A stretch of 64,000 nucleotides of DNA from a virus (IMGVR_UViG_3300015368_000213:61710-125709); one strand, 5' to 3'; counted from the stretch's first letter, positions 12,964-41,168 are shown. The notes: generated from the letters alone by a model not told the origin. Program-made: numbers and translations.

Positions 12964-13413
12964 TCATCTTGCCCCCTGAATGAATCTTTCATGAGTCATA
13001 TGTTCACGTAATTGCCATGTGCGATTATTCAATTCCTTGAGAACATTCGTGCAGAAATTTGCAGCTTCCTCATGATATTGTCTTTTTGTGTTTATATTAT
13101 TTAGGTCAGCATCACCATCAATATACACACTAATATCAGACTTCAATACAAATTGAAATGGCTCCCATCCCAGTTCCGTCAGCTCATTAGCATCCAATTT
13201 ACCAGTATAATACATCCACTTAGTTTTCTTCATACGTAAGAATTCTGCATGATAATGCTTTGATGCTAGATTATGTAATGATAGATATCTATTGTATTTT
13301 GCATGTATGATTGGTATATTGAGAATCTCCTTCTCTGGTTCTGTTGGATTTATAACAGAATCCTTATCCCATTCATCAATCATCTCTTCAATCTTGGGTG
13401 TTTTTATTTTCAT
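12964..13413 (-). CDS. uvsY: UvsY recombination mediator
   Basis: A 149-residue mediator that loads the UvsX recombinase onto gp32-coated single strands. It matches T4 UvsY in layout: an N-terminal IEEMIDEWDKDSVI helix, the YNRYLSLHNLASK segment, then MKKTKWMYYTGKLD (T4: KKVALKARLDYYSGRGD), a VYIDGDADLN stretch and a C-terminal helix rich in R and H. The start at 13413 (MKIKTPKIEEM) agrees with the T4 N-terminus; the longer open frame upstream is not needed. It has a clear sigma70-type promoter about 30 bases upstream and directly precedes uvsW. Confidence 0.87.
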   Translation of the reverse strand: MKIKTPKIEEMIDEWDKDSVINPTEPEKEILNIPIIHAKYNRYLSLHNLASKHYHAEFLRMKKTKWMYYTGKLDANELTELGWEPFQFVLKSDISVYIDGDADLNNINTKRQYHEEAANFCTNVLKELNNRTWQLREHMTHERFIQGAR

Positions 13414-13445
13414 TTCAAATAACCATAAGTACCATATTATATGCA

Positions 13446-13474
13446 AATATAACACTATTATGGTGTATAGTCAA
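13446..13474 (-). promoter_or_regulatory. Sigma70-type promoter of uvsY
   Basis: On the minus strand TTGACT (13469-13474), exactly 17 bases and TATATT (13446-13451) precede uvsY, with a predicted transcription start near 13439. It stands back to back with the rightward promoter at 13485-13513, giving a divergent promoter pair. Confidence 0.7.
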
Positions 13475-13513: not shown

Positions 13514-13556
13514 AGACTATGTTGCCGTTAATGAATAATATTAATTAATATATTAA
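13501..13556. repeat. 56-bp exact direct repeat, copy 1
   Basis: This 56-bp segment is identical to 51505-51560. It contains the TATAAT of a rightward promoter, an initially transcribed region that can be read as a nine-codon peptide from ATG 13519 (MLPLMNNIN), and a 14-base palindrome ATATTAATTAATAT (13538-13551). It also includes the stop codon of the leftward gene at 13553. Early promoters followed by stem-loops (PeSLs) are known mobile regulatory cassettes of T4-type phages; this is a likely relative. Confidence 0.9.
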
Positions 13557-16018
13557 GAAGAAGCATCTTTATTCTTACGTGCAATATCATATGCTGTTGT
13601 TAATAATGCCTGTTTCTTTATTGCCTCATTCGGATGATTAATGAATTTACTAACCATATGCATAGGCACTTGTCTATGGGATAGAGCATTAGTTACTACT
13701 ATTGGATGTTCATCACTTAATGCTTTCTCAAAGTGAGCATCGGTTAAATGTAACCTAGCCATAGGATTTCCAAATACAGAGCTTTTAACTCCCGGATCAG
13801 GATGATTTAATATAGCATTGATATGCTCCTTATTTATATTTCCATAAGAAGCAACATTACGTCTTATAGCAGGATTACTGTGATTTAGTAATTTTGATAA
13901 ATGATGGGCTTTTAATCTTGGATCGGTTATAGCTGATGGACTCATTACGAAATTAGATGCCCTATCATTCATATTCATGACATGATCAACAGCTGTATCC
14001 ATGTGTTTATCTTTAAAATGTTGTGAATGCATAGCACGATTTACTCTCATATGAGTAGGAACACTTAACATTTTATCAATGACATCACTATTAGCATTTT
14101 CATGTTTGGCTACAACATCGCTTAGATCATCGTGTTTATCATCCAATGCTGTCATCAAATTATCAACTGATGCATGGGAGCTGCTCAATGCACGGGTTTT
14201 GATTGTTGTTCCATTTTCTGGATTGCGGAGCATCATATCTACGTGTTTTGATGATAAATTAGGATTTAACGCAGCATTAAATCTAGTCTCATGATCTGGA
14301 TGTGTTACTGCTTTTTCCAAATCATCACCTTTTAATAATGGGCTTTTCCCAGCAAACACTCGTACTGGGAGTAATGGATTATCCAATCCTTTCAACATAT
14401 GCTCTTTGGTTGCATTTTTATGCATAATCGCATGTTCTCGTATCGATGGTTCAGAATCAGATAATAATTTATCTATATGATGTGGGGCAAGATTCTTGAC
14501 TGCATCAACAACTTGAAATCTGACTTTAGATGATGGGTCGCTTACCAATTTATCAACATCATTGTTTGTCAATTTCTCATGCTGTCTATAAACAGCAGCT
14601 GCCCTAACATCATCACTAGTATCATTGATTGCTTTCTGCGCATTTTCCACTGATGCACCTCTATGCACGGCAGCATCCTTTCTAACCTCAACACTATGAT
14701 CATTTAATGCTTTATCTATATTGGCTGGTGATGAATGTGGCGATCTTATTGCTTTTTGTCTCACCTCAACATTACGATCATCTAATGCGGTATCTATGTG
14801 GTGTGATGTGATATTAGGATTTCTCATAACAACCATTTTATCATCATAATCTGCTTCACTATGTTTATCTTTGTTAGATAGGATATTTGTTATGTGTTTA
14901 CTATCCAAATTAGTATGAAGTAATGCAACATTACGTAAATTACGATCTCCCCATTTATCATTCATGATATTATCCAGAACTTCTTTTGGCGTATTACTAT
15001 TATATAACGCCTGTTTTCTTACTGCTACGCTTCGGTCATTTTTCACCACATGGGATATTTGTTCTGGTGTGATTTTATCATGGGTGGCAGCAGTCAGTCT
15101 AAGCTGTTCATCTGGGTCATTGAGAGCAATACCCACATGTTCAGATGTTGCCTTTGGATGATTGAGTGCCGCCTTTTTGATTCTGTAATGCTTTGCTTCT
15201 TCTGATCCAGTACTGTTCTCTGGTAATTTTTGATTCAATATATTAGTTAAATCTTTCTCTCCGACAGCTGGATGTATTTTTTGTGTCGGTGCATTATCAT
15301 TGTATACGGATGGGTTTATGGTATAAAGTACGTTGCCCCCTTTATGTTTACCGGATAATTTATCTGCAACTTTACTCATTTCATCCATAAACCCCTGATG
15401 CCTTATTCCATAATGGGAATTTATGGCATGCATAGTATGTCCTTCTTCATTGTGATATGGATGGAAAGTGGTTCTGGCTATTTCTTTACCTGTATGATCT
15501 TTCAAATAACCAACTACAGTACCTTCCTCTACTTCGTTTTCCAGATAATCCCTGTTGCATCCGTTTTCGAAATTCTTACATGATTCGTTTTCCCATGATT
15601 GACCACCTGATGTTTGACCAGCCACACGATGTGGATGTCTGGATACATGCACAGTCATTCCTGTGTATTTTTTCCCTTGTCTAGTAGTATCATTAGCAAA
15701 GTCATTAATCAGATCTTGGTTTGCCTTTGTTTTGGTGAGCAACCCACCAATTCTAACAGATCTACCGTGCTTATCTTTGGTCATACCACCCTTATATTCT
15801 TCTGGTGATATTGTGGCACCAAGATGCTCTTCAACTCTTTTATGTACTTCGGATTTGTCTTGAGTTCCTTCTAATGGATATTCTATATCGTGATTACCCT
15901 CACCAAAGTAATGATCTGTATGGGATAATGTCTTTTTTGTAGGCATAGCCCAACTATCAACATCGTTCTTCTGTTCTGGTGTTAATTCTTCGGTTATAAA
16001 TTTTTTGAAAGTTTTCAT
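13553..16018 (-). CDS. Repeat protein A with capsid-targeting-like N-terminus (candidate packaged protein)
   Basis: An 821-residue protein, one of three tandem paralogs. Its first ten residues, MKTFKKFITE, closely match the T4 capsid targeting sequence of internal proteins (MKTYQEFIAE), which the gp21 protease cuts after the Glu of an (I/L)xE motif. Residues ~60-265 form a conserved globular region with the signature VSRHPHRVAGQTS, then QSW..ESCKNF, GTVVGYLKDHTGKEIA and NSHYGIRHQGFMDEM. From about 285 on run some twenty units of 24-27 residues of the type 'A..h..at..hid.aLnD....VR', resembling LRV or HEAT-like repeats. It follows paralog B by three bases and ends inside the 56-bp repeat. The function is unknown; packaging is inferred. 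Confidence 0.8.
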   Translation of the reverse strand: MKTFKKFITEELTPEQKNDVDSWAMPTKKTLSHTDHYFGEGNHDIEYPLEGTQDKSEVHKRVEEHLGATISPEEYKGGMTKDKHGRSVRIGGLLTKTKANQDLINDFANDTTRQGKKYTGMTVHVSRHPHRVAGQTSGGQSWENESCKNFENGCNRDYLENEVEEGTVVGYLKDHTGKEIARTTFHPYHNEEGHTMHAINSHYGIRHQGFMDEMSKVADKLSGKHKGGNVLYTINPSVYNDNAPTQKIHPAVGEKDLTNILNQKLPENSTGSEEAKHYRIKKAALNHPKATSEHVGIALNDPDEQLRLTAATHDKITPEQISHVVKNDRSVAVRKQALYNSNTPKEVLDNIMNDKWGDRNLRNVALLHTNLDSKHITNILSNKDKHSEADYDDKMVVMRNPNITSHHIDTALDDRNVEVRQKAIRSPHSSPANIDKALNDHSVEVRKDAAVHRGASVENAQKAINDTSDDVRAAAVYRQHEKLTNNDVDKLVSDPSSKVRFQVVDAVKNLAPHHIDKLLSDSEPSIREHAIMHKNATKEHMLKGLDNPLLPVRVFAGKSPLLKGDDLEKAVTHPDHETRFNAALNPNLSSKHVDMMLRNPENGTTIKTRALSSSHASVDNLMTALDDKHDDLSDVVAKHENANSDVIDKMLSVPTHMRVNRAMHSQHFKDKHMDTAVDHVMNMNDRASNFVMSPSAITDPRLKAHHLSKLLNHSNPAIRRNVASYGNINKEHINAILNHPDPGVKSSVFGNPMARLHLTDAHFEKALSDEHPIVVTNALSHRQVPMHMVSKFINHPNEAIKKQALLTTAYDIARKNKDASS

Positions 16019-16021
16019 TGG

Positions 16022-18481
16022 TTAATTTCCAAAATGATTAACATGGGTTTTTGCTGCAAAACTTATATCTTTATCTGGATGATTTATCAGTGGAGATACC
16101 AAATCTGCTGGTGTACGTGAATGAGTTAGTGCGCTTAATACCACAGCTTTAGATCTATCATGTAATGCAGTGTTAAAATTATCTCGTGAGATATTAGGTA
16201 CAGATGAATAATTACTGAATATACTTGCTCTTGTTAGAGCATTTTTTGATCCTAATATCTTGGTGATATGATCATTATTTAGGTTGTATCCATTTGCCCC
16301 AACTAAGGAATGTATAGCAGAATCTTTATGTGTTAACAATTTATCAATATGTTGTGGTTTGATTGCTGGTGATGCCAACATATTAACAACACCTTCATGC
16401 TCACTCGTAGGTACTGTGTCGTGCTTCATGAAATTATCTATTGCATGATCAATGTGTCTGCTGGTTAAAGAATGCACACTATGATAATTTGTTGATCTTA
16501 ATGCTTTATTACGTGCAGCCACATGTGGGGAATCTATCATATGGAAAATATGATCTGATCTAAATGATGGATGATTCATAACTTCTTGGCTCAAATCATC
16601 TTCCGGATCTCTCAGTGCTTTTGTTAAATTATCTGGTGTTGCATTATTATTTTCTACAGCAGCACGTTTAACTGATATATGATTATCATTTAATGCTTTG
16701 TGTATGTTTTCTTCTGTTGCATTGACATTTGATGCCGCTGCCATTCTGACATGATGGTGTTCATCATTCAGTGCATGGTGGATTACTTCTGGATCTTTTG
16801 TCCATTTTGCGGCTTTGGCTCTGGTAGATGTGTCACTACTATTCAATGCTGTCATGAAGTTGTCTTTGGTTGCATTTTTATGTTGTAATGCATATGTGCG
16901 AACAAAATCATTTTCATCTTTAAGTGCTTTATCTATATGTCTTGGGGTTAAATCCCCACGATACACCATGTTATATCTGACTGATGTATTATTGTCCGAT
17001 AATGCTTTATCTATTTGTTCTGACGTGAATTTACGAGCATTGGCATTTATCATACGGGATTTAACACCAAATGATTCATCATTAAGTGCTTTATCTATGT
17101 GGTGCGGTAATACATTTGGGTTTGAGGCTGCTTCTGCCCTAACTGACTCACTCTTGTCTGCCAATCCCTGATCAATTTGTTTAGATGTTGCAGATGGATG
17201 TGAAACAGCAGCACCTCTCACTTCATGAAGGTGAGGATCCTTCATAGCAATATCAATATGTTCAGATGTGATGCGTGGATTTTTGAGCACACTGACTTTA
17301 TCTTCATGATAAACAAATTTATCATTTAATACATCATTTATTTTTTGTGTTGATAAATTGGGATGACGCAATACCATATGGCGCACAGTACTATTAAAAA
17401 TAGATGGGTCATTACTATTCATTGTCTTGTCATACACTTTATCTAAAGTATTACTTGACATATTTTTATTTTTTATAGCAGCATGCACTACCATATCATT
17501 ATTATCTTTTTCTATCACATTATCCAATTGTTGCGCAGTAGCTTTTGGGTGTAATGCTGCTTCATGTCTGATATTAGGATCGCTGTCATTGAATGCTATA
17601 TCAAGATGTTTATCCGTTACCTTTGGATCATTAAGTGCGGTTATTTTATTTTTCTGTACTTTATGTATTGATGAGAACCCAACTCCAGTTGGTTTTGATG
17701 TAAGGATGTTGGTTATATCATCTGATGTTGCAGATGGGTGTATGGCTTGTGTTTTGTTGTTATCGTTATACACTTTCGGGTGTATTGTGTACATCAAATC
17801 ACCACTCTTATGCTCACCAGAAAGTTGATCAGCAACCTTTTCCATTTCATCCATAAATCCTTGGTGTTTTATTCCATAATGGGAATTTGTCCTATACATG
17901 ACACGCTTCTTATCATTAACATATGGCTGGAAAGTGGTTCTGGCGATTTCTTTACCTGTATGATCTTTTAGATATCCCACCACAGTTCCATTAGCAACTT
18001 CATCTTTTAGGTAATGTTTATTCATGCCAGTATCAAAATTCTTACATGACTCTTGCGCCCATGATTGATTTGATGTCTGACCAGCTACATCATGTGGATG
18101 TCTTGATATATGAACAGTTAATCCTGAGAATTTCTTACCCTGCCTAGTAGTATCATTAGCAAAATTATTGATCAACTCTGGGCTGGCTTTTGATTTTGCT
18201 AATAATCCACCAATTCTAGTTTTTCTTCCATATTTGTCTTCAGCCACTCCCTGTTTATAATCTTCTGGTGATATTTGTGAACCAAGATGTTGTTCAATTT
18301 TTTTATGTATTTCGGATTTATCTTCTGAACCTTCCAGAGGATAGGTTTTTACATGATTACCTTCACCAAAGTAATGATCTGTATGGGATAATGTCTTTTT
18401 TGTAGGCATAGTCCAAGAGTCAACTGCACTCTTTTGTGTGTCATTTAATTCTTCTGCTAGAAATGTTTTGAATGTCTTCAT
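16022..18481 (-). CDS. Repeat protein B with capsid-targeting-like N-terminus (candidate packaged protein)
   Basis: An 819-residue paralog of its two neighbours. The N-terminus MKTFKTFLAEELNDTQK has the internal-protein pattern with a candidate gp21 cut after LAE. The conserved domain (ISRHPHDVAGQTS, QSWAQESCKNF, GTVVGYLKDHTGKEIA, HYGIKHQGFMDEM) spans about 60-265. The rest is a long array of LRV/HEAT-like units ending in 'NDxxxxVR', unusually rich in His and Asn. The domain is much better conserved among the paralogs than the repeat arrays, which have diverged. It is placed 15 bases after paralog C and is probably co-transcribed with it and the gp19-like gene. Confidence 0.8.
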   Translation of the reverse strand: MKTFKTFLAEELNDTQKSAVDSWTMPTKKTLSHTDHYFGEGNHVKTYPLEGSEDKSEIHKKIEQHLGSQISPEDYKQGVAEDKYGRKTRIGGLLAKSKASPELINNFANDTTRQGKKFSGLTVHISRHPHDVAGQTSNQSWAQESCKNFDTGMNKHYLKDEVANGTVVGYLKDHTGKEIARTTFQPYVNDKKRVMYRTNSHYGIKHQGFMDEMEKVADQLSGEHKSGDLMYTIHPKVYNDNNKTQAIHPSATSDDITNILTSKPTGVGFSSIHKVQKNKITALNDPKVTDKHLDIAFNDSDPNIRHEAALHPKATAQQLDNVIEKDNNDMVVHAAIKNKNMSSNTLDKVYDKTMNSNDPSIFNSTVRHMVLRHPNLSTQKINDVLNDKFVYHEDKVSVLKNPRITSEHIDIAMKDPHLHEVRGAAVSHPSATSKQIDQGLADKSESVRAEAASNPNVLPHHIDKALNDESFGVKSRMINANARKFTSEQIDKALSDNNTSVRYNMVYRGDLTPRHIDKALKDENDFVRTYALQHKNATKDNFMTALNSSDTSTRAKAAKWTKDPEVIHHALNDEHHHVRMAAASNVNATEENIHKALNDNHISVKRAAVENNNATPDNLTKALRDPEDDLSQEVMNHPSFRSDHIFHMIDSPHVAARNKALRSTNYHSVHSLTSRHIDHAIDNFMKHDTVPTSEHEGVVNMLASPAIKPQHIDKLLTHKDSAIHSLVGANGYNLNNDHITKILGSKNALTRASIFSNYSSVPNISRDNFNTALHDRSKAVVLSALTHSRTPADLVSPLINHPDKDISFAAKTHVNHFGN

Positions 18482-18496
18482 GATTTTTTTGATACC

Positions 18497-20074
18497 TTAA
18501 TCTAAAAATCGTTGGGCATATGTTGATACGTCATCATGCGGAGATTTTGTTGCAAATTTGTATTGTTCTGGTGTTACTTTAGTGCCTAATAAAGCAGCAT
18601 ATTGCACACCCTTATCTGGATGGCGTAATGCCTTGTCTATATTTTCTTTACTTATATTATCACTATACATGGCATTTGTAGATAGTCGAATATTCCATGG
18701 AGTAGGAGGACCACTCAACACATGATTTATGTGTTCAGGTGTAATGTTTCTGTTATGTATTGCTGTTTCCGCAGTAGTATAATTATCACCATTTATTGCT
18801 TTGAATAAGTTATCGGATGAGGCATTGGAGTGACTAGCTGCAACCGTTCTTGCTCTGATATTATTACTACTTAATAGTTTATCTATGTGTTTGGGTGTTA
18901 GATTTCTATTTGTGGCTATTTCCTCAAGATCCTCTGGTTTGCGTGGATTATCTATTACACTATCAATTCTATCTTTTGGGAAATTATCATGATTCAATGC
19001 ATATTGGCGAACAAGATCATTATTGATGTGTTTATCATATAAATGAGATACTTGTTTTTCGGATAATGCATTTGGTGTAGATAATAATTCTGTCGTAACT
19101 TGTGGATGTTTACTGTTCATAGCCATTTCTATATGGCTTTGTGTTAGTTTATTATCTCTAGCTAGATTACGTATAACATGACTACTCAATACTCCATTCT
19201 TATCACTGGATAATATATCATTGATGTGCTTATTTGTTATCTTAGGATGATTCAATGCAGAAACTTTAATGTGATCTGATGCACCAGAATTCAATACATC
19301 GGTTAATTGTTTACTACTAATTGCTGGATGTAATATTGTGTGTGGTTTATTATCATTATATACTTCATCATGTATGCGATGAAGTATACTACCACCTTTA
19401 TGCTCACCGGATAATTGTGTAGCCACTTTACCCATTTCGTCCATAAATCCTTGATGCCTTATTCCATAATGTGAGTTTACTGCATATGCCACATCTCCCT
19501 CATTATTAATATGAGGTTGGAAAGTGGTTCTAGCTATCTCTTTGCCTGTATGATCCTTTAAGTACCCAACTACAGTTCCATTAGCAACTTCTGCTCGTAA
19601 ATAATCTTTATGTAATCCGCTATTGAAATTCTTGCATGACTCTTGCGCCCATGACTGATTGCCTGATGTCTGACCAGCTATATCATGTGGATGTCTTGAT
19701 ATATGAACCGTCAATCCACTATATGCTTTACCTTGTCTGGTAGTATCATTAGCAAAATTATTGATCAATTCTTGACTGGCTTTTGTTCTAGTAAGCAATC
19801 CACCTATTTTAGCCTTTCTTCCATATTTGTCTTCAGCTACACCCTGTTTATAATCATCTGGTGATATCGTAATACCAAGATGATGTTCTGTTGCTTTATG
19901 TGTTTCTGATTTATCTTGAGTGCCTTCCAATGGATAGGTTTTTACATGATTACCTTCACCAAAATAATGATCCGTATGAGCAAGAACATCACTATCCGGC
20001 TTTTCCCAAGAATCAACTTTTTGTTTTTCTGTCGGGGATAATTCTTCTTTAATGAATTGTAAAAATTTCTTCAT
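18497..20074 (-). CDS. Repeat protein C with capsid-targeting-like N-terminus (shorter paralog)
   Basis: A 525-residue paralog of the two following genes. The start MKKFLQFIKEELSPTEK again fits a capsid targeting sequence with a possible gp21 cut after IKE. The conserved domain at ~60-265 keeps every signature (ISRHPHDIAGQTS, QSWAQESCKNF, GTVVGYLKDHTGKEIA), but the repeat array is about 300 residues shorter. The start overlaps the stop of the gp19-like gene (ATGA), so it is translationally coupled to a virion gene driven by a late-type promoter. The biochemical role is unknown. Confidence 0.8.
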   Translation of the reverse strand: MKKFLQFIKEELSPTEKQKVDSWEKPDSDVLAHTDHYFGEGNHVKTYPLEGTQDKSETHKATEHHLGITISPDDYKQGVAEDKYGRKAKIGGLLTRTKASQELINNFANDTTRQGKAYSGLTVHISRHPHDIAGQTSGNQSWAQESCKNFNSGLHKDYLRAEVANGTVVGYLKDHTGKEIARTTFQPHINNEGDVAYAVNSHYGIRHQGFMDEMGKVATQLSGEHKGGSILHRIHDEVYNDNKPHTILHPAISSKQLTDVLNSGASDHIKVSALNHPKITNKHINDILSSDKNGVLSSHVIRNLARDNKLTQSHIEMAMNSKHPQVTTELLSTPNALSEKQVSHLYDKHINNDLVRQYALNHDNFPKDRIDSVIDNPRKPEDLEEIATNRNLTPKHIDKLLSSNNIRARTVAASHSNASSDNLFKAINGDNYTTAETAIHNRNITPEHINHVLSGPPTPWNIRLSTNAMYSDNISKENIDKALRHPDKGVQYAALLGTKVTPEQYKFATKSPHDDVSTYAQRFLD

Positions 20075-20616
20075 TTAATCCTCTCATAATCATAATATGA
20101 AAATCTAAACGATGCCTCTGCTGTTATTATATTTTCTGCTGTATCACCAGTATTAAATATTATTGTGGATAAATTTGTAGGAAAAATATCTATTAATTTT
20201 ATCCTGAAATTGGCATTATTCTTATTTGTGTATAAAGTCAATATCGCATCTGAATATTGTGCTTTTTGTTTGAATTCTTTACGGAATGCTGCTCCTGATG
20301 ATTGTTTGGTTAGATTCATATATTCTTTAAAATCTGTAGGGAAAGTCAATCCCCTCATCCAATCATGTATCTCAGTCCATGCAAGCAAGTCTTCATCAAC
20401 TAGAAATGTTATATTAAATGTATCATATACCAACTTATCACCAACCATATACAAATCTACAAATGGGGTTTGTCTTGGAACTTCGGTGAGAGATATACCT
20501 GGGAAGTTGGCAGACTGGCAAAAATATGTCATTGTCGGCAATCTCTCAAAAGTTAACCTAAACTTTGTAGATTGCAGCAAATCTGTGTTCTTCGGATTTC
20601 GGTTTACTGTTGTCAT
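20071..20616 (-). CDS. Second gp19-like tail-tube-fold protein
   Basis: A 181-residue protein resembling the gp19 tail-tube family, distinct from the main gp19 at 28250. Shared features are the early FRLTFERLP strand, CQSANFPGISLTEVP (gp19 here: CKSAQLPGSTLGTVP), the FNITFLVDEDLLAWTEIHDWMRG segment (gp19 here: WTVTVINDEDFLVRNLLEGWMGE) and a C-terminal FRFSYYDYERI strand. It may cap or initiate the tube, or be a baseplate tube protein; sequence alone does not decide. A late-promoter-like ACTAAATA lies 25 bases before the start. Its product heads the operon of the three repeat proteins. Confidence 0.7.
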   Translation of the reverse strand: MTTVNRNPKNTDLLQSTKFRLTFERLPTMTYFCQSANFPGISLTEVPRQTPFVDLYMVGDKLVYDTFNITFLVDEDLLAWTEIHDWMRGLTFPTDFKEYMNLTKQSSGAAFRKEFKQKAQYSDAILTLYTNKNNANFRIKLIDIFPTNLSTIIFNTGDTAENIITAEASFRFSYYDYERIK

Positions 20617-20640: not shown

Positions 20641-20648
20641 TATTTAGT
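20641..20648 (-). promoter_or_regulatory. Late-promoter-like ACTAAATA before the second gp19-like gene
   Basis: The minus strand reads ACTAAATA 25 bases before the ATG at 20616 and just after the gp23 terminator, the right place for a new late transcript. It differs from T4 TATAAATA in the first two bases, as do several other copies here. Confidence 0.6.
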
Positions 20649-20667: not shown

Positions 20668-20693
20668 AAAAAATGGGGGAGCGAACTCCCCCA
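20668..20693 (-). terminator. Intrinsic terminator after gp23
   Basis: An 8-bp GC-rich stem (20674-20681 with 20686-20693) closes a TTCG tetraloop on the minus strand and is followed by six T. It lies about 60 bases after the gp23 stop and would end the highly expressed head-gene transcript. UUCG-loop hairpins are a known T4 feature. The remaining gap 20617-20754 holds only the late promoter. Confidence 0.9.
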
Positions 20694-20754
20694 TCTAAAC
20701 TTATCACATATTATTGTTATTATCTTGTGATATCTGTTTACCAAGCAACCCTTA

Positions 20755-22086
20755 TTACTGTTGAATATTAAGGACTTGGAACTTGCGATAATACTTGTTG
20801 GTATTGTTTGAAACAACACCATCTTTATTATCTGTTGCAAATGGGTTTGCAACTAAGCCATAACGTGTCTTGAACCCAACCTTTGGCTGATAGGTTGTTG
20901 GGTCAATAGCGCGTACCATTTGTAGCGGTACGTATGGGCAATAGAACAGACCAGAGTCATATGGGTTTTGACCCTTATAACCAACGCAAACAAAGTCTGA
21001 TCCAGTCACTGAGTACGGATCAACAAACACTTTGATACGTCCGAATAGAACACCAGCAAATGTATTGCCAGTATCATCAACGGCTAAGTTTGTTTGACCA
21101 GTTAGTGCTGAATTGTAATCCAATAGACCAGTCATTGATAGAGCTGATGCTACGTCTGTAGAGACGATTAGCATGTTGCCCTTACCACGACGAGTATCTT
21201 TGGCGATCTTGTTAGCTGCACGTTCTACGGCAAATAGCAAGGTCTTATACTTTTCAACAGCCCAACGACCAGAAGTACCAGTGTCAGGAACATTGGTTGC
21301 ACTTAGGTTGAAGGATGCAGTAGCAGAGCTTACGATACCTAGATTTGCACTTACGATAACCTTACGAACAACTTCACGGTTGATTTCAGCAAGAATTTCT
21401 GTTGACAAGATATTTGTCAATTCAGTTTCTGCATCTAAACCATGGATTGCCTTTAGGTCTTGTGCCAATTCTAGTGTGTAAGAAGCTTGCAACCCACGAG
21501 TTGTTGCAGTAACAGGAACACGGTCGATTTGGAAGCCCATGTAGTTAAGAATTGAATCTTCACCAGCACTTGTTGCCATACCACCACCAGTATTGGCTGT
21601 ACCAAATACTGCTGTGTTAGCAACGTTTTGGCTCATATCAACATAAGCAGTACCGAAACCACTATTAGCACCAGAATAACCAGTGTTGGCTTCTGGGAAT
21701 AATGCTTCTGTTCCTCTAGTTGTTGCATCAGCATAGGTTGAGCGCATAGCGAAAATCAAACCAGTAGGACCAGTCATTGGCTGAACGCCGCAGATGTCAT
21801 AGGCCATTAGGTTTGGTAGGGAACGACGAACCAATCCGATTAGAATTGGATCAAAACCCTTGATACCACCTTCGCCGCCAACTACAGGAGACATACCACC
21901 AGCAACAGAGTTAGCTGGAGATTCCCATAGGTTTTGCATGCTACGTGATTCTTCTCTTAGGGCAACTTCTTGATTTTCGAGAACTAGAGCAGTTACTGCT
22001 CTCTTATAGTGATCTGTGATCTTTGGGAGTTCAGGATGATCAAGAACTGGTGCCCACTTTTTTGCATATTGTTCATTTAAATACAT
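20755..22086 (-). CDS. 23: Major capsid protein gp23
   Basis: The 443-residue precursor of the hexameric capsid subunit. The family is recognisable from KWAPVLDHPELPKI near the N-terminus, the LVRRSLPNLMAYDICGVQPMTGPTG segment, ALFPEANTGYSG, the TRGLQASYTLELAQDLKAIHG helix, and the C-terminal GLVANPFA. T4 gp23 (521) is longer; this size is typical of cyanophage-like T4 relatives. The N-terminal region to about residue 50 contains LRE/E sequences that fit gp21 cleavage, removing the propeptide during head maturation. It follows the scaffold gene gp22 by 24 bases and ends before a strong terminator. Confidence 0.96.
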   Translation of the reverse strand: MYLNEQYAKKWAPVLDHPELPKITDHYKRAVTALVLENQEVALREESRSMQNLWESPANSVAGGMSPVVGGEGGIKGFDPILIGLVRRSLPNLMAYDICGVQPMTGPTGLIFAMRSTYADATTRGTEALFPEANTGYSGANSGFGTAYVDMSQNVANTAVFGTANTGGGMATSAGEDSILNYMGFQIDRVPVTATTRGLQASYTLELAQDLKAIHGLDAETELTNILSTEILAEINREVVRKVIVSANLGIVSSATASFNLSATNVPDTGTSGRWAVEKYKTLLFAVERAANKIAKDTRRGKGNMLIVSTDVASALSMTGLLDYNSALTGQTNLAVDDTGNTFAGVLFGRIKVFVDPYSVTGSDFVCVGYKGQNPYDSGLFYCPYVPLQMVRAIDPTTYQPKVGFKTRYGLVANPFATDNKDGVVSNNTNKYYRKFQVLNIQQ

Positions 22087-22110: not shown

Positions 22111-23199
22111 TTAAAATTTCGGATTTGTTTTAGTAATTGCACTTACATAATGTGCCATAATGCCAGATATTTCTGCTTCTACTTCTGGCTGTTCAATTGT
22201 TGTTTCTTGAATAGCCTTTACCTCACTCTTCACAGTTGTCTTTGATGGGAAGTAGTTTTCACGAATTGTCGTGAGTTTATTAATATAATCACCCTCTGTG
22301 GTGAACTCCACGCCCTCTGCAAGCGATTTCATTTTGCCAACTTGTACTTCGGTTAAACCTTCACAAATTTTGCGAATACTTTCATTCTTCTTTGCTGTAT
22401 GCAATTCTTCTGTTACCTTGACCAATTCTTCTTCACGAGCAGCAATAGTGTCTTGCATTTCGATGACTTGACTTGCTAATTCTTCTGCAACGTCAACCTT
22501 AGAATCAGGGATTTCAATGTAATGTTCAGCAAATACGTTCTTCAAGCTAACTAGAAGATCTTCTGAAATTTCAGCGCGTAGACCCCTTTCGATGGCAACT
22601 TGATTTTCCTTCATCCATTCCTCAACAACATAATTCAAATATGAATCAACTTGTTCAGACAATTCGGATGTGATACCTTCAATTGCTTCATCGATGATCT
22701 TGTCATTATCAGACAATACATCTTCTACGATAGATTCAACTCTGCTTTGTACAGCAGCTTCGAATATAACAGTAGCTTTGGTTCTAAAATCTTCTGATAA
22801 AGACTCACCGTTGAATAATGCATTTACATCTTCAACCATTGAGCCTTTACGTGCATTGACCTTTTCTCTAATCCAATTCTTCTTTTCTTGTGTGACATCT
22901 TGCACAGATGTTTCTTCACCTTGAAGATTGGTTCCGATTGGAGCCACCACTGGCTGTGCCAATCCTTGAGTTGTTGGGTTTCCTTCCTTGTCACCTTCTG
23001 TTGAAGTCTGACCTGGTTTTGGTGCTTCGGCTACTCCAGCAGCAGCAGCGGAACCTACACCTTCCCCACCTGGGTTTTCGGTAGTTGCGCCACCTAAATC
23101 TTGGACACCCGCGTTTACTACTTGCTGTGGTTCTTCTTGTTTAGTTGCAATTGAAGCTTGAAGAATTTCAGCAGCTGATTCAGATAATGTTTTTGCCAT
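22111..23199 (-). CDS. 22: Prohead scaffold core protein gp22
   Basis: A 362-residue scaffold protein around which the head assembles. The N-terminal ~100 residues are low-complexity (Gly, Ala, Pro, Thr). The centre and C-terminus are acidic coiled-coil-prone helices (DNDKIIDEAIEGITSEL, VIEMQDTIAAREEEL, LTEVQVGKMKSLAEG), like T4 gp22. Many E-rich (I/L)xE sites would be cut by gp21. An exact TATAAATA late promoter lies 27 bases upstream. Gene order gp21, then a homing endonuclease, then gp22, gp23. Confidence 0.88.
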   Translation of the reverse strand: MAKTLSESAAEILQASIATKQEEPQQVVNAGVQDLGGATTENPGGEGVGSAAAAGVAEAPKPGQTSTEGDKEGNPTTQGLAQPVVAPIGTNLQGEETSVQDVTQEKKNWIREKVNARKGSMVEDVNALFNGESLSEDFRTKATVIFEAAVQSRVESIVEDVLSDNDKIIDEAIEGITSELSEQVDSYLNYVVEEWMKENQVAIERGLRAEISEDLLVSLKNVFAEHYIEIPDSKVDVAEELASQVIEMQDTIAAREEELVKVTEELHTAKKNESIRKICEGLTEVQVGKMKSLAEGVEFTTEGDYINKLTTIRENYFPSKTTVKSEVKAIQETTIEQPEVEAEISGIMAHYVSAITKTNPKF

Positions 23200-23267: not shown

Positions 23268-24074
23268 TCAGCCGCTGTGACTGCTTCGTTTGATATTCGA
23301 TATCATTTTACATTTATTGAAATGATATCTAACCATTGCAGGTTTTCCTCCAGTTTTTAAACAATGTGGGCATGTTACTTGCTCCTTTGGTTGTTTAAAT
23401 AACATAGATATTTTTGGATCTTTCATTGGATTATTTATAATCATGCGTTCTCTGCTTAAACTGTCAATATATTCTCTGTTTAATTGAAAGTTGTGAGCTT
23501 TTGTTGCTAAAAGATCCTTTTGTTTCGCTGATGCTGATACCCTATTGGATATTTTATTCATGGGATTATCCTGTATAAACCTCAATTTACCAGCATTTTT
23601 TCTTTTTTCTATTGTTTCTTTATTTTGAAAATTATGAGAACCAAAAGAAAGTTGTTCCTTGCATTTATTTTTCCTCATTATTCGAATGGATTCTTTCTTT
23701 GATGGATTATTTTCGCTTAAATAGCGTTTACCATCAGCAGACTTCATCCAATTTTGATCGCTTCTTCTTTTTCTTTCATTTTCGGATTTTGCTGGATTTA
23801 AATCTCCTGTTGCGAACCCGACACTAGTATTATTGAAGTTCATATTAAACTCATTATCAATATTTTTAATTATTTCATTTTGTTCAGCTAAAATTAATTC
23901 GTCAAAAGAATTATAATATCCAATAATTTCTCTTGATAATTTAGATTTATCTTTTATGGATCTGATCCATTTACCAGAACCCAGATATCCATCTTGTTCA
24001 TTTTCTGTACTGTGTCTTCCTATATAATATTTACCAGATTCAGTATGCGTTGTTTTATATATAAAATGGATCAT
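23268..24074 (-). CDS. GIY-YIG homing endonuclease between gp21 and gp22
   Basis: A 268-residue free-standing homing endonuclease. The N-terminal GIY-YIG nuclease core reads FIYKTTHTESGKYYIGRHST, followed by GYLGSGKWI and a helix carrying the catalytic Glu region (LAEQNEI). The middle has NUMOD3-type DNA-binding repeats (GDLNPAKSENERKRRS, NNPSKKES, DNPMNK). The C-terminus has a zinc-finger-like CPHC...H...C. It sits between two essential morphogenesis genes, the usual place for Seg-type genes that spread into T4-like genomes. No strong ribosome binding site is visible, suggesting low expression. Confidence 0.88.
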   Translation of the reverse strand: MIHFIYKTTHTESGKYYIGRHSTENEQDGYLGSGKWIRSIKDKSKLSREIIGYYNSFDELILAEQNEIIKNIDNEFNMNFNNTSVGFATGDLNPAKSENERKRRSDQNWMKSADGKRYLSENNPSKKESIRIMRKNKCKEQLSFGSHNFQNKETIEKRKNAGKLRFIQDNPMNKISNRVSASAKQKDLLATKAHNFQLNREYIDSLSRERMIINNPMKDPKISMLFKQPKEQVTCPHCLKTGGKPAMVRYHFNKCKMISNIKRSSHSG

Positions 24075-24080: not shown

Positions 24081-24725
24081 TTACATTTTATTCAAAAAGT
24101 TTTCGAATATCTTTAATGATATTTCATCAAGTTGCTTTTGTTTAGCTTTTTTGATCTGTTCGTAATATACATTTACATCCATCTCCTTAATCAATCCATT
24201 TTCCCAGACCCACTCTTTATGTTCCATCAATCCATTAACAAAACACCCTGGTCCTGATGGGTCTGCAACAATGTCAGCAGCAGTAGCAAGATAGAAATCA
24301 TCTTGAACCATATTGACACCATTTACATTCTTTAATGAACCCATACCACGGGAAGATACACCCAATGTTGCTCCACCTTCCATCAAAGACTTAGCGATTT
24401 TACCCATTGGGGTATCCAATACTTTAGCTTTTCCCATGAAATTGTTTCCTTCCTTCTTTAGAGAAACAATTAGATGTGATACTCTATCTAAATTAATTGA
24501 TGGTGTATCTGGATGCCCCAATTCACCAAATGCTCTATTTTTATCGATGTATTCTTCTGTATATCGTTTGGCTTCTTTTTCAAGAATTCTTGATTCATAA
24601 AGACGACCATTCCTATTCTTTTGTTCAGCAACAAGGAATGGTCCAGTAATGTATAGGCTTTTTACACCATTCTTTTCTTCAACCAACACACTTGTGTCTA
24701 CAATATCTTCTCTGATTAGTTTCAT
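24081..24725 (-). CDS. 21: Prohead core protease gp21
   Basis: A 214-residue serine protease of the S77 family that matures the prohead by cutting gp22, gp23, gp67 and packaged proteins. The catalytic His is His71 in FGELGHP and the nucleophile lies in GVSSRGMGS (Ser124 or Ser125). The downstream AADIVADPSGPGCFV loop is typical of phage head proteases. Length matches T4 gp21 (212). Neighbours are the basic prohead protein and the GIY-YIG gene. Its cleavage specificity, after Glu in (I/L)xE, is the basis for the packaging prediction of the repeat proteins. Confidence 0.94.
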   Translation of the reverse strand: MKLIREDIVDTSVLVEEKNGVKSLYITGPFLVAEQKNRNGRLYESRILEKEAKRYTEEYIDKNRAFGELGHPDTPSINLDRVSHLIVSLKKEGNNFMGKAKVLDTPMGKIAKSLMEGGATLGVSSRGMGSLKNVNGVNMVQDDFYLATAADIVADPSGPGCFVNGLMEHKEWVWENGLIKEMDVNVYYEQIKKAKQKQLDEISLKIFENFLNKM

Positions 24726-25014: not shown

Positions 25015-26433
25015 TTATTTATTACTTTTTGGTGTTTGAAAGCCATGTTTAGCAAAATCAAAGGGTTGATTCCTTGGTAGATCAGCTGTTCCTGCTCTGC
25101 TATTGATAGCTTCTACTTCATCATCACCTAATAATCTATTGACTTTCATTGAACCAGATATCAACCAATTACCAGTCATGTTTGGATTTGTTTTATATCT
25201 ATAATGACCACCAAATGGTATTTGATCCGTCACGGCAGCAGTGCTTGCTATGATCTTTCCATTCTTATCTTTTCTCGCATTGGAATTAGCAACAGATTGC
25301 CAATCAACGTCAGCAGGAACTTCTACTTCTGCCCACACATGATGTGGTTCTCTTGTATCTGGTGGTAATGATCTATCACCATGAGATTTTCCGCCTATAT
25401 GATGTGCTATTGGCAGATCTCCACTGTGCCAACCGGGGCGATATGCCAAATCACCAATTTTAGATTTTACTTTATTAGGTGATTTGCCTCTCTCACCACT
25501 TGATGCATTTATCCATTTTCCCATTTCAACTGGGCTATTTGCATCAACGTATAATGGATATATTTTCCCTTGATGTTGTGCACCTTTCTTTACTTGAAAT
25601 AGTTTATACGCAGTTACTGTTTTTTGTGGGATATTTCCAGCATCTGATGGCTGAATATCTTCATTTATAAAGTGACCATCGAATTCTTCATTGTGTATCT
25701 CTGTTCCTACAACTGCACCAATACCTTCATGCGCAGTATATGGTACAGAAAATGCTAATCCGAGTTTATCATTAGTATACAATGCAACACGTCTCCCATC
25801 AGGAAACTGTCTTATTGCTGTTCTCTTTAACACCAACATTGCTGGTGGTTGGAAATTACCATTGACAGATTCGCTAATCTGTTCTTTATCTGTTATTATG
25901 AATGATTCTTGTTGATTTGCTCTCTGATCCGTTCTTGCTTTTTTAGCAGCTGCATCCGCAGTTTGTTTGGCTGTCTTTTCTATATTTGTTAATATTTGAT
26001 TTGTTTGTGATTGTTGTCTTCTCTGTAGAGCAGTGAGTGTTCTAGCAACATTGACTGCTTTGTCTACTGGAATATCAGCACCCAAAAGAGGATCAGGGAA
26101 TCCTGTTGAATTTATGTCTCTTATCTGTGTCTGTTGTCTCGGATTCAATCTTGACACGGCACTTGCATATCGTATTGATGGATTTTTTTGCAAAGTGTCT
26201 GTTAGCTTCTCATACGCACTAACAGCAGAAGATGGACTGAATGACATATCCCCAGACGCAGCTCTAGTAGCTTGAGTCAATGCACTCATTTTTTGTGAGA
26301 GCGTATTATGTGCTTCACGTTTTTTGGCTAAAGCAGCTTGGCTCTTTGATACTATAGTTTGTTTGGCATCCTGATCATCCTGATCATTTTGGCTATATTC
26401 CAATAGTCTTTGTCTAAGAGTCTTTAACTTCAT
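25015..26433 (-). CDS. Polyvalent-type domain protein inserted in the prohead-core cassette
   Basis: A 472-residue protein between gp67 and the basic core protein. The first ~180 residues are helical, Gln/Ala/Lys-rich and coiled-coil-like, opening with MKLKTLRQRLLEYSQ, where LLE could be a gp21 cut. The C-terminal ~200 residues form a domain I recall from large polyvalent phage and plasmid proteins: YKLFQVKKG, PLYVDANSPVEMGKWI, KIGDLAYRPGWHSGDLP, HHVWAEVEVPADVDWQ, IPFGGHYRYKTNPNMTGNW, LISGSMKVNRLL and a final GTADLPR. The biochemical activity of that domain is not known to me. The gene overlaps the gp67 gene by 20 bases. Its position suggests it is packaged into the head (inference). Confidence 0.7.
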   Translation of the reverse strand: MKLKTLRQRLLEYSQNDQDDQDAKQTIVSKSQAALAKKREAHNTLSQKMSALTQATRAASGDMSFSPSSAVSAYEKLTDTLQKNPSIRYASAVSRLNPRQQTQIRDINSTGFPDPLLGADIPVDKAVNVARTLTALQRRQQSQTNQILTNIEKTAKQTADAAAKKARTDQRANQQESFIITDKEQISESVNGNFQPPAMLVLKRTAIRQFPDGRRVALYTNDKLGLAFSVPYTAHEGIGAVVGTEIHNEEFDGHFINEDIQPSDAGNIPQKTVTAYKLFQVKKGAQHQGKIYPLYVDANSPVEMGKWINASSGERGKSPNKVKSKIGDLAYRPGWHSGDLPIAHHIGGKSHGDRSLPPDTREPHHVWAEVEVPADVDWQSVANSNARKDKNGKIIASTAAVTDQIPFGGHYRYKTNPNMTGNWLISGSMKVNRLLGDDEVEAINSRAGTADLPRNQPFDFAKHGFQTPKSNK

Positions 26434-26619: not shown

Positions 26620-26627
26620 TATTTAGT
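26620..26627 (-). promoter_or_regulatory. Late-promoter-like ACTAAATA before gp67
   Basis: The minus strand reads ACTAAATA, overlapping the gp20 stop codon and lying 24 bases before the preferred gp67 start at 26596. Confidence 0.55.
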
Positions 26628-28180
26628 CATTGTTGATCTGGTGGGGTAATTCCCAATTTCTTCATCATCTTCAATTGTTCAGCTTGCTGTTCAATTGCGG
26701 CAATCTGATCCTCTTGAATTTGCTCATCCACCTTTTCTTGCTCATCTTCATCCATTCTTATTATGTTCTTTTTCACCCATTCATTAGAGTAATACATACC
26801 AACATATGGAGTGATCGTCTGTAACAGAGTTAATCTTTGTGTCAATAGTTCTGCTTCTTTTAATTCCGTGAAATTATTATCTTTCAGGAAGTTATAATGG
26901 ATGTTCTCTCTAAGTTCTTTCCATTCATCAATCGAACAGATTCCTTTTAGAGCAAGTTGCCTCTGCATTAATTCATCAAATAATGTAGAGAATTTAGCGC
27001 GTAATCTATCAACAAATTTTGTGAATTTTAATTCGTCTCTGGTGATTTCTGTAGTTCTACCTAACATGAATCCCTGACCCTGATCCAATCGTGTAACAGG
27101 AACATTTAATGACTTGTTTAGTTTCATTTCAAAATATTTAACGTCGGCCAATTCACCGAGATTTTCTCCAGCAGGTAGAGTAGTGATTTCTGTAGATTTA
27201 CCCTCACCTCTTCGTGGAATCCAGAAATCTTCCATCATAGATAAGAATTTCCTATCATCTTTCACTGTTCCTGTTGTCGGATCATATGTGACTTTATTTC
27301 TGAATTTTGTCATAATATCATTTAGATATTGCTCTGCCTTTACTTTTGGCATGTTAGCAACATCAATATAGAACACTCTTCGTTCTGGTGCTCTTGATAT
27401 TCGATATATCACTATAGCATCTTCAATCATTCTTAACTGATTGAGTGGTTTTATTGCTTTATGTAAGTATGATAGAACCATTGTACGCTTTGCGTCCATC
27501 AATCCAGAATTTACATTGACGATGGCATCAGTTGCAATTTTTATCCCTGCATCTGTTGGTGATGTAGTTATTGATTGTCCTTGTGTGGTGGCTTTATCAT
27601 TATAGATATAGAATTCTTGTGTGCCGCCAACGATATCAACACCAGTTCGTGGATCTTTTGTCTTTATGACAGATCGTATCTTTTTTACTTTTCTTGGGTC
27701 TAAGTATAGTAATTCCTGAATCCCTAATTTTGGCTGTGATTCGTCTATCAACACTTGATAGAATAATCTACCATCAATATACCATCTCTTGAAGATATCA
27801 TATCCATCATTTGAGAAGTTCAGAAGCTTTAGTATATTTGCAAATTCTATTCTGAATAATTCTTTAATATTATCTGGTTGCTCCAGATCATCCAATACAA
27901 TACTTACTGATTTACCTATATCATCATGTACAATTGATTCGTTTATAATATCATCTACTGCGGTTTCTATTTCTGGCTGCATAGCCATTTCGCGGTATCG
28001 TGTTATAAGATCATTTTCGTTTTTATATGACGCTTCTAGGTCAAGATATGTGCCGAAATAACCACCAGATGCTACATTAATAGCACCATCATCCGTTAAT
28101 GGTGCTGATAATTGGGGTTGTATTTGTTGTTCTTTGTCTTGCTGACGAACAATCTCGAAACCAAAGAGTGATATTGCCAT
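26627..28180 (-). CDS. 20: Portal vertex protein gp20
   Basis: A 517-residue portal that forms the DNA gate at one head vertex and binds the terminase and neck. It matches T4 gp20 in LITRYREMAMQPEIETAVDDIINE, the FKRWYIDGRLFYQVLIDE strand, the ELLYLDPRKVKKIR segment, the PERRVFYIDVANMPKVKAEQYL helix and the WIPRRGEGKSTEITTLPAG loop. T4 gp20 is 524 residues. A hairpin and GAGG ribosome binding site lie just upstream; gp19 precedes it and gp67 follows. Confidence 0.96.
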   Translation of the reverse strand: MAISLFGFEIVRQQDKEQQIQPQLSAPLTDDGAINVASGGYFGTYLDLEASYKNENDLITRYREMAMQPEIETAVDDIINESIVHDDIGKSVSIVLDDLEQPDNIKELFRIEFANILKLLNFSNDGYDIFKRWYIDGRLFYQVLIDESQPKLGIQELLYLDPRKVKKIRSVIKTKDPRTGVDIVGGTQEFYIYNDKATTQGQSITTSPTDAGIKIATDAIVNVNSGLMDAKRTMVLSYLHKAIKPLNQLRMIEDAIVIYRISRAPERRVFYIDVANMPKVKAEQYLNDIMTKFRNKVTYDPTTGTVKDDRKFLSMMEDFWIPRRGEGKSTEITTLPAGENLGELADVKYFEMKLNKSLNVPVTRLDQGQGFMLGRTTEITRDELKFTKFVDRLRAKFSTLFDELMQRQLALKGICSIDEWKELRENIHYNFLKDNNFTELKEAELLTQRLTLLQTITPYVGMYYSNEWVKKNIIRMDEDEQEKVDEQIQEDQIAAIEQQAEQLKMMKKLGITPPDQQ

Positions 28181-28249: not shown

Positions 28250-28762
28250 TTAACCAACGTCTGCTTGTTTCGTTGTCCAATACTGGTAAGCAAATGTAAC
28301 TTGATATTCTTCTACAGTATCATTTTGCCCCCAATCCAATTCTATTGGAGAAACGTCTGTTGGATACAATCCAACAAAGGTATACTGTTTCAATTTATCG
28401 CCCTGTTTACCATATTGAAGAACATCAGCATCAGTGAAATAATTTGCAGATAATGATGTTGCAATATTTGTTTGATGTGAATTTATTTCACCCATCCAGC
28501 CTTCTAATAGGTTGCGGACAAGGAAATCCTCATCATTTATTACTGTTACTGTCCATTCTGGGAATGTCCTGTTACCAGCAAGCTTGATTTCACGACCAAA
28601 GTAGTACACAGGAACAGTACCAAGAGTAGAACCAGGAAGTTGAGCAGATTTACAAGTAAAGCTGAATTTACTGGTAAGTCTTGATAAACTTACTTGGAAT
28701 AGATTAGGTCTTGCTCCGTCATACTGAAATTGACCTTGAAATTCTGATATATTAAATGGCAT
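28250..28762 (-). CDS. 19: Tail tube protein gp19
   Basis: The 170-residue subunit of the inner tail tube, which stacks as hexamers inside the gp18 sheath. T4 gp19 is 163 residues. The opening FNISEFQGQFQYDGARPNLF, the FSFTCKSAQLPGSTLG strand, VPVYYFGREIKLAGNRTFPEW, the DFLVRNLLEGWMGEINSH helix and VGLYPTDVSPIELDW are typical of the family in cyanophage-like T4 relatives. It follows gp18 by 40 bases with a late-promoter-like CATAAATA in the gap. Confidence 0.94.
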   Translation of the reverse strand: MPFNISEFQGQFQYDGARPNLFQVSLSRLTSKFSFTCKSAQLPGSTLGTVPVYYFGREIKLAGNRTFPEWTVTVINDEDFLVRNLLEGWMGEINSHQTNIATSLSANYFTDADVLQYGKQGDKLKQYTFVGLYPTDVSPIELDWGQNDTVEEYQVTFAYQYWTTKQADVG

Positions 28763-28786
28763 TTGTGTCTCCTAGAGATTCTGGTT

Positions 28787-28794
28787 TATTTATG
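28787..28794 (-). promoter_or_regulatory. Late-promoter-like CATAAATA before gp19
   Basis: The minus strand carries CATAAATA 25 bases before the gp19 start, differing from T4 TATAAATA by one base. Confidence 0.65.
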
Positions 28795-28802
28795 CTGTAG
28801 TA

Positions 28803-30560
28803 TTAAAACTTACCAACAACTTCATCGAAGCTTACACCAGTTCTAACAGCAACGAAATTCAATTGTATGAAATTGATACTTCTAGCTGGTTTGATATAAA
28901 TGTCACCAATAAACTCATTTCTATCAATGACTTCACCAGTGTTATTTGTTTCATCACATACAACCTTATAGTCATATATGCCACGACGACCCTTCACATC
29001 TCTCAAGAATGGTTCGACAATTGACACGAACTGTGCTCTTGTAAATTCATCATTGAATTCGAATAGGCTGGATCTTGCTGCTCTAGCAATAGCCTTTTCC
29101 AGCACAATGAACAATCTACGAACATTGATTCTGTCAAATGCCGATGGTCTTGCAAGTAATGTCTTGTCGCCATACAACATAACACCTTCTCCTGGGAAGG
29201 ATACAATTGGATTTATTCCGGTTTTGTATAGAGTGTCTCTATCTGTCTTATTTGGAACATAAGCAAGCTTAACGACATTCTTGATGTTACCACGAGTTAA
29301 ACCAGCAGGACTCCACCAAGGATCACGTTCAGCATCTGTACGAACACACAAGCCAGCAATATCACCATTTGATGGTATCCAACGATATACATCATTATAC
29401 TTGTCGTACTGGTATTTCCAAGAGCTGTCCATAACAGCATAACTTGAACTTCTTCCTAATCCATCACGATACGAAGCAACATCTGTTGCTGGTGTTGATG
29501 TTTGGCAATTTGCTAGTGGTGGTGAAATAAATGCAACACAATCCTTTCGTGTTTCTACGATATTATCTATAACGTAACGTTGAACATTAAGCATTCCTGT
29601 TTCTGTGGTATATCCCCCAGTAAGCACTAGTGATATATCAATTTCTTCTGCATTTACAAATTTGCTGTATGAATTTATAACATTTGCGGATATAGGATTA
29701 CCATCAGTACCTCTAACAAGATCAATACTTACGGCAGGATTAGCACCGTCAATGTTTATGAAAGATTTTCCAGCAGATGCCACAGTTCCCCATGCATTTG
29801 CACCAGCATTATTAACAGTATTTACTGTGTCTGGGTGTGCTGTAGAATATATATACTTTGATTTGTTATAAATTACATCTCTATAGTAGTTAGAATTACC
29901 AAATGAATCTTTAGCATTGATTGCCTTTGATACGAAACCAAATGTTTCTAATACAGTGTTCTGTGTTCCGGTGAATGCACCATCAGCGTCAACAACAACG
30001 ATGTGTAATTCGTCATTGGCTGCACCAACAGATGCGGCATAAGATGATGTTGCTGGTGCGCTTGAGAATAGCGTATTTCCTGTCCATGTAAGGAAATCGC
30101 CAGTATTTGCGCAAATATCTACTCTTAGTGAATTACCTTTAGCACCAGGATATCTAGCAGCCCAAGCACCAATTGTTGTATTGGTTCCTGTGTAGTAATT
30201 GTTAAAATATTCTTGATCATTTTTAATGGATGCATTAGCTGTCTGTGCTGGGTTTGAAACAGCAGTATTTGTAGAAGAACTACCTGCTCTCACAACTCGT
30301 AGGTCATTACCATACGACAAGAAATTTGCAGCTGTGAAAAATGATATCGCATTATTCGATGAATATGCGGTATTATCTGGTGAATTTGGTTTACCGAAAA
30401 ATTCAACTAGTTTATTTTCATTGGCAATCTGCACTGGGAAATCTATAGGCCCCCATGTGAATACGCCAGCGAATGCGCCAGTGGATGTCCCAACGGCAGG
30501 AACAACGGTTGTTAAGTCAATTTCAGATGTTACAACACCTGGAGATAGTTGAAAGCCCAT
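28803..30560 (-). CDS. 18: Contractile tail sheath protein gp18
   Basis: The 585-residue sheath subunit that contracts to drive the tube through the cell envelope. The start FQLSPGVVTSEIDLTTVVP, the GAFAGVFTWGP segment and the C-terminal core (INVRRLFIVLEKAIARAARS, FEFNDEFTRAQFVSIVEPFL, VKGRRGIYDYKVVCDETNNT) are the conserved sheath elements. T4 gp18 is 659 residues; the middle variable domain is shorter here. The gp17 C-half gene lies 65 bases upstream and gp19 follows. Confidence 0.96.
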   Translation of the reverse strand: MGFQLSPGVVTSEIDLTTVVPAVGTSTGAFAGVFTWGPIDFPVQIANENKLVEFFGKPNSPDNTAYSSNNAISFFTAANFLSYGNDLRVVRAGSSSTNTAVSNPAQTANASIKNDQEYFNNYYTGTNTTIGAWAARYPGAKGNSLRVDICANTGDFLTWTGNTLFSSAPATSSYAASVGAANDELHIVVVDADGAFTGTQNTVLETFGFVSKAINAKDSFGNSNYYRDVIYNKSKYIYSTAHPDTVNTVNNAGANAWGTVASAGKSFINIDGANPAVSIDLVRGTDGNPISANVINSYSKFVNAEEIDISLVLTGGYTTETGMLNVQRYVIDNIVETRKDCVAFISPPLANCQTSTPATDVASYRDGLGRSSSYAVMDSSWKYQYDKYNDVYRWIPSNGDIAGLCVRTDAERDPWWSPAGLTRGNIKNVVKLAYVPNKTDRDTLYKTGINPIVSFPGEGVMLYGDKTLLARPSAFDRINVRRLFIVLEKAIARAARSSLFEFNDEFTRAQFVSIVEPFLRDVKGRRGIYDYKVVCDETNNTGEVIDRNEFIGDIYIKPARSINFIQLNFVAVRTGVSFDEVVGKF

Positions 30561-37924: not shown

Positions 37925-37929
37925 TTATA

Positions 37930-38688: not shown

Positions 38689-38713
38689 TAGATAAATTCC
38701 TCGTAATAATACA

Positions 38714-38721
38714 TATTTATC
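38714..38721 (-). promoter_or_regulatory. Late-promoter-like GATAAATA before gp13
   Basis: The minus strand carries GATAAATA, one base from TATAAATA, 26 bases before gp13. It separates the tail-fibre region from the neck genes. Confidence 0.6.
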
Positions 38722-38983: not shown

Positions 38984-38994
38984 ATTCTACCTAT

Positions 38995-41145: not shown

Positions 41146-41168
41146 TAGTAATTATTCTCCAAAAGTTA

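Follow-up and report, generated by a model that had tools for sequence, protein, structure and literature searches.

Three paralogous repeat proteins of a T4-like virus carry predicted capsid-targeting leaders

Proteins packaged in the phage head are the first phage molecules that a host meets, and few of them are known outside the T4 group. In T4, proteins are directed to the prohead by capsid-targeting sequences (CTSs) of 10–20 residues, and the gp21 protease, which cleaves after Glu according to the cited T4 literature, removes these sequences (PMC5694885). Foreign proteins can also be packaged by means of a CTS (PMC3012670). The T4 internal proteins IP1, IP2 and IP3 are injected, each of them blocking a different GmrSD restriction enzyme (PMC12373910). 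Here we describe three adjacent paralogous genes (A, B and C) whose products begin with predicted leaders of this type. They lie in a stretch of 64,000 nucleotides of viral DNA (IMGVR_UViG_3300015368_000213:61710-125709), hereafter the window. This window is part of the 125,709-base (125.7-kb) record of a T4-like virus that encodes gp20, gp21, gp22 and gp23. Positions are those of the window unless the record is named, and all features located in the window are on the minus strand.

The paralogs and their T4 counterparts

With moderate confidence, the three proteins are regarded as paralogous internal head proteins that are packaged, cut by gp21, injected, and active in the new host. From their sequences, packaging and cleavage after Glu10 are judged distinctly probable, while injection with the DNA is plausible by analogy with T4. 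Each protein comprises a 10-residue leader, an N-terminal domain (N-domain) of about 245 residues, and a repeat array with a period of about 26 residues. Paralog A (821 residues; 13553–16018) has the predicted leader MKTFKKFITE (residues 1–10; 15989–16018; predicted cut ITE/E after E10, the slash marking the cut), an N-domain at residues 11–255 (15254–15988) with the invariant Cys147 encoded at 15578–15580, and an LRV/HEAT-like array at residues 256–821 (13556–15253). Paralog B (819 residues; 16022–18481) has the predicted leader MKTFKTFLAE (18452–18481; predicted cut LAE/E after E10), an N-domain at residues 11–253 (17723–18451), and an array at residues 254–819 (16025–17722). In paralog C (525 residues; 18497–20074), the predicted leader MKKFLQFIKE (20045–20074; predicted cut IKE/E after E10) and the N-domain (residues 11–253; 19316–20044) are followed by a short, weakly conserved array (18500–19315). 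Cysteines are rare, with two in A and one each in B (C146; 18044–18046) and C (C147; 19634–19636); the common one is the family-invariant Cys.

A preliminary description of this DNA had reported these three N-termini, which are found exactly as claimed, and a set of conserved domain motifs. The motifs are present, namely SRHPHRVAGQTS, SRHPHDVAGQTS and SRHPHDIAGQTS, followed by QSW..ESCKNF and after that by GYLKDHTGKEIA, except that paralog A has HPHR where HPHD was expected. The conserved domain and the LRV/HEAT-like arrays are also borne out; the paralogs share 67–72% identity in their N-domains and 26–35% in their C-terminal arrays. The arrays of A and B exceed the curated Pfam cutoffs for repeat families (HEAT, cutoff 23.5 bits: A 52.7 bits, E = 2e-14, and B 36.1 bits, 4.7e-9; LRV, cutoff 21.6 bits: A 22.1 bits), while the Pfam scan gave no match for C.

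By sequence pattern, these proteins have what characterizes T4-type CTS proteins, namely a leader of 10–20 residues ending in a protease site, and the same genome encodes a gp21-type protease together with gp22 and gp23. They resemble T4 IPI–IPIII in the MKTxxxFIxE-type leader of 10 residues, its gp21-like LxE/IxE end, and the presence of several copies per phage. However, the T4 proteins are small (mature IPI* has 76 residues) and unrelated in sequence, whereas those described here are two-module proteins of 57–91 kDa whose packaging and injection are predicted. T4 Alt, an ADP-ribosyltransferase, offers a precedent for a large enzyme that is packaged in the head and injected; the paralogs, in contrast, have no Pfam ADP-ribosyltransferase match, and no such domain appears among their Pfam or PHROG matches. 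Their fold neighbours are GNAT-like instead.

The leader and its association with gp21

The motif [FY]..[FYLI][LIV].E occurs within the first 14 residues of 4 of the 137 open reading frames (ORFs) of the whole record, taken at their annotated starts. Shuffling of the N-termini gave a mean of 0.38 such ORFs, and none of 2000 shuffles reached four. The three paralog matches are not independent, because tandem paralogs share ancestry. Two further leader-motif ORFs outside the window, at record positions 28256–28894 (MKNFREFLNE) and 37384–37857 (MLKFKDYITE, start re-chosen), have no family match.

The sites cut by the T4 prohead protease have the form (L/I)xE. In the N-domain family, start codons of metagenomic relatives were set by rule, the closest ATG ahead of the domain being taken. 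Of 106 distinct members, 81 have Glu immediately ahead of the domain, 23 have Ser, and 2 have Ala (L013, one of these two, being of uncertain alignment). The residue two positions before that Glu is I, L, F, Y, M or V in 79 of the 81, which corresponds to the LxE/IxE pattern, and the following residue is mostly A or E. A scan of the records covered S77 (gp21) and gp23, and records with either or both were counted as T4-type. All 26 members from T4-type records have the Glu, a count that includes the window's own three and one record with three members assigned by gp23 alone. Large S77-negative records, on the other hand, contain 6 members with Glu and 17 without it. In the jumbo phages of Erwinia and Dickeya, and in Lu11 and HRDY3, Ser or Ala takes the place of the Glu, and those that were scanned showed no gp21; the copies of Lu11 and HRDY3, which lie outside that scan, have Ala. 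Fisher's test of Glu against S77 gives p = 1.6e-8 but, as it treats related members as independent, does not serve as proof. When the leader columns are excluded from tree building, the residue state changes five times on the resulting tree, at least three of them forced, and all informative independent pairs run as predicted, Glu with S77 (on average 1.6 versus 0). In control counts, a simple form of the motif starts 9 of 19 family ORFs versus 11 of 137 other ORFs at S77-positive loci, and 0 of 21 versus 4 of 129 at loci without the Glu. Since, among about a hundred related phage proteins, the tag occurs in every virus with the T4-type enzyme that cuts it, the proteins are probably packed in the head and delivered to the host. 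The conservation of LxE/IxE, its presence in all T4-type records, and its absence from the sampled non-T4 jumbo phages likewise support packaging and gp21 processing. This comparative evidence thus supports the first two parts of the earlier claim that the proteins are packaged, processed and injected; the injection and the possible host-takeover or anti-defence role put forward there are predictions.

The same data can be read in another way. The proteins might be late cytoplasmic products that are never packaged. In that case the Glu would serve structurally, capping the first helix, and an amphipathic N-terminus would give rise to the LxE pattern. This reading, which we consider unlikely, gains from the fact that the domain begins directly after the Glu, and from the phages that lack this residue and keep the domain otherwise intact, so that the domain works without this packaging route. 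Against it, positions −1 and −3 change jointly in the Glu-less clades (xLxE to VSLS, ISTS or VAA) while the downstream ALxPSQYR persists, and all T4-type records keep the Glu. Moreover, in the AlphaFold model of the N-domain of paralog C (average predicted local distance difference test score, pLDDT, 88), the leader is disordered, residues 1–8 scoring below 50, and the first helix starts at residue 14.

It is important to note that several points weigh against packaging and injection. The link between Glu and S77 rests on few independent changes, for which a sign test is unable to reach 0.05. In some of the large S77-negative records the Glu is retained, as the cytoplasmic alternative would have it, and searches of these records for the portal (PF07230) and phrog_207 found no reason for it; a diverged protease or an incomplete record is possible, because their relative L131 has S77, as is retention of the Glu for another reason. 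Other jumbo phages encode the same domain with no leader, which indicates that its basic role is independent of the capsid route. The member of Agrobacterium phage Atu_ph07 is encoded outside that phage's three main virion-gene clusters. As for the activity of the domain, its fold matches in the PDB are individually not significant and its CoA-loop motif is not conserved.

According to the favoured mechanism, the three genes would be expressed late, and the leader of about 10 residues would bring each protein into the prohead core, where the gp21 protease of the phage would cut after Glu10 (ITE, LAE, IKE). Once mature, the 57–91 kDa protein would exit along with the DNA and become active in the next host. 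A shared activity would reside in the conserved N-domain, with its GNAT-like core and single invariant Cys, and the diverged arrays would select different targets. The sequences themselves show the gene structure, the family, the conservation of the leader and how it is distributed with respect to gp21, the predicted fold class and the late-promoter-like element, whereas packaging, cutting and injection of the proteins, the role of the arrays in recognizing targets, and enzymatic activity of any kind are inferred. With its sequence-readable leader, this family of more than 100 large-phage sequences provides a list of candidate injected proteins of uncultured T4-type phages.

Distribution and predicted fold of the N-domain

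As judged from sequence searches, the N-domain is a large, hitherto unnamed family found only in phages. No name for it came from sequence searches of Pfam, NCBIfam and the PDB, and a single scan covering 84,980 prokaryote genomes yielded no confirmed relative. It is present in well over 100 IMG/VR stretches and in named jumbo phages, such as Agrobacterium Atu_ph07, Dickeya JA11, JA13, JA29 and JA33, many Erwinia phages, and Pseudomonas Lu11 and HRDY3. The Atu_ph07 protein is AUZ95153.1, or gp371 when counted from the capsid protein gp215 (AUZ94997.1); the main text of the paper on the Atu_ph07 virion (PMC6102473) does not mention it by name. It matches phrog_17056 (function unknown) over its full length; the window proteins share its N-domain but differ in their arrays, and fall short of a match to that profile. 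The C-terminal modules are variable, being DUF4116-like in Atu_ph07, WG repeats in another member, and LRV/HEAT in the closest relatives. The amplification of the family proposed earlier extends to other phages, with three tandem copies in Lu11 and L023 and two in HRDY3 and Dickeya JA13, among others. The pairing of a constant domain with variable arrays suggests a design for target switching, and the occurrence of the same domain with and without the leader is a natural experiment on what capsid delivery contributes.

This distribution bears on a further alternative, in which the proteins are packaged and cut but remain in the head, or aid its assembly, as structural or core parts. Their genes adjoin those of gp23 and a tail-tube-like protein, and T4 core proteins are likewise gp21 substrates (PMC5694885). 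However, the patchy distribution, the shifts in tandem copy number, the exchange of C-terminal modules, and the fast divergence of the arrays are unlike core genes. T4 itself is not known to need such a protein for its assembly, and the alternative is accordingly rated as quite improbable, below the cytoplasmic one.

The preliminary description had looked to structure prediction for the fold of the domain, and a GNAT-like core has emerged from it, tentatively. Besides the paralog C domain, the distant member L050 was modelled (pLDDT 91); the two modelled members are about 28% identical. In Foldseek comparisons with the PDB, both models return almost exclusively GNAT-fold entries, the best at E values of 0.056–0.058, individually sub-significant, and the fold search of the PDB gave no match at E < 0.001. 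Since both models have nearly only GNAT-fold neighbours, a GNAT-like core is likely at the level of the fold. The usual Q/R-x-x-G-x-G/A coenzyme A (CoA) loop after strand 4 is nevertheless not conserved, the segment reading YG....GF or YP...MPF depending on the member, and for this reason acetyltransferase activity is not claimed. Conservation is strongest in the S.HP motif, a Trp, the Cys, a Tyr, and an Arg; no GNAT protein is known to us with an equivalent of the invariant Cys/His/Trp set.

The structure search also gave nine viral matches at E < 1e-11, the named ones being proteins of Dickeya phages, Atu_ph07 and other phages, and below these, weaker PcfJ-like and GNAT phage proteins. Kinship with PcfJ (PF14284) was tested as well and is not claimed. 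The spacing from the conserved Cys to the following strands is similar, the register is plausible by eye, and one PcfJ-like phage protein reaches a structural E of 1.7e-3, but the profile comparison is not significant (hhalign P 0.078 and 0.14) and PF14284 has no match in the genome.

It is speculative that the N-domain works as an enzyme through the invariant Cys and that the arrays pick host targets. Similarly tentative is the broader idea of a widespread modular effector class, in which a GNAT-like single-cysteine catalytic domain would be joined to swappable arrays (of LRV/HEAT, DUF4116, WG or other type), would be amplified as tandem copies against different host proteins, and would enter or leave the capsid route by gain or loss of a cleaved leader. 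The polyvalent proteins (Iyer et al., 2017; PMC5512222) embody a similar concept of multidomain effectors co-injected with DNA, some of them with GNAT domains; in contrast, no common domain was found, and the delivery proposed here is by a CTS in T4-type heads.

Gene neighbourhood and further candidates

The three paralogs and a tail-tube-like gene (20071–20616; phrog_45, E = 2e-34) are all placed between gp23 and a UvsY-like gene, which lies 3′ of paralog A (12964–13455). The tail-tube-like gene comes first and is overlapped by paralog C through an ATGA, the next gaps being of 15 and 3 nucleotides, so that the four genes are read as one operon. This agrees with the co-expression with a tail-tube-like gene and the location by head genes that had been claimed earlier. 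An intrinsic-terminator-like hairpin after gp23 (20671–20696) sets the operon apart from that gene. A TAAATA (20641–20646) lies 30 nucleotides 5′ of the first operon gene. In this genome, TAAATA is found 30–39 nucleotides upstream of seven ORFs, versus 0.28 expected, including gp22, gp19 and the paralog operon; given this enrichment, it looks like the core of a T4-type late promoter. The exact TATAAATA is not enriched within the window, the signal being the TAAATA core at that distance. The late-promoter-like element and the location between gp23 and uvsY, together with the disordered leader of the model, further support packaging and gp21 processing.

The ATGA coupling to a phrog_45 gene might suggest that the paralogs are tail- or baseplate-associated repeat proteins co-translated with it, and a family gene adjoins a tail-tube-like gene and uvsY in the relatives L020 and L054 as well. 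This is nonetheless very improbable, because the Pfam and PHROG scans gave no tail-family match for the paralogs, many relatives are located elsewhere, and gp21 is known to act on head proteins. A second tail-tube homolog, also phrog_45, lies at 28250–28762 beside the portal-like gene.

The T4-type head module comprises a gp23-like major capsid protein (20755–22086), assigned by reading its translation and matching gp23-type genes in relatives; a gp22-like scaffold (22111–23199; PF25623, 4.7e-64); a gp21-like prohead protease, the presumed cutter of the leaders (24081–24725; PF03420, 9.2e-33; phrog_207, 1.8e-80); and a portal-like ORF (26627–28180), assigned by reading. In the gp23-like protein, NLWE/SPAN was assigned by reading as a candidate LxE site ahead of the mature part. 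A homing endonuclease (23268–24074; phrog_314, GIY-YIG-like by reading) sits between gp21 and gp22.

Other candidate packaged proteins were noticed. An ORF of 472 residues (25015–26433), between the portal-like gene and a small gene before gp21, has the N-terminus MKLKTLRQRLLEYSQ, with an LLE site, and carries a phrog_30118 domain (function unknown) in its C-terminal part. Outside the window, a ferritin/Dps-like protein (record 40793–41329; PF00210, 5e-18) has a possible internal start, MKDNIKKFIKE/AES, and by this sequence may be head-packaged. Beside the leader-bearing genes there, two neighbouring ORFs have LRV-like repeats and a different N-terminal part (record 37829–40786).

Elsewhere in the window, two long ORFs at 30626–34836 have a junction that resembles an intein insertion, and relatives match both of them piecewise. 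Several tail-fibre-like ORFs at 41169–61633, one of 2775 residues, have in common the N-terminal module M..NFPASPSLGQTYT.G.NSWKWNGASW.

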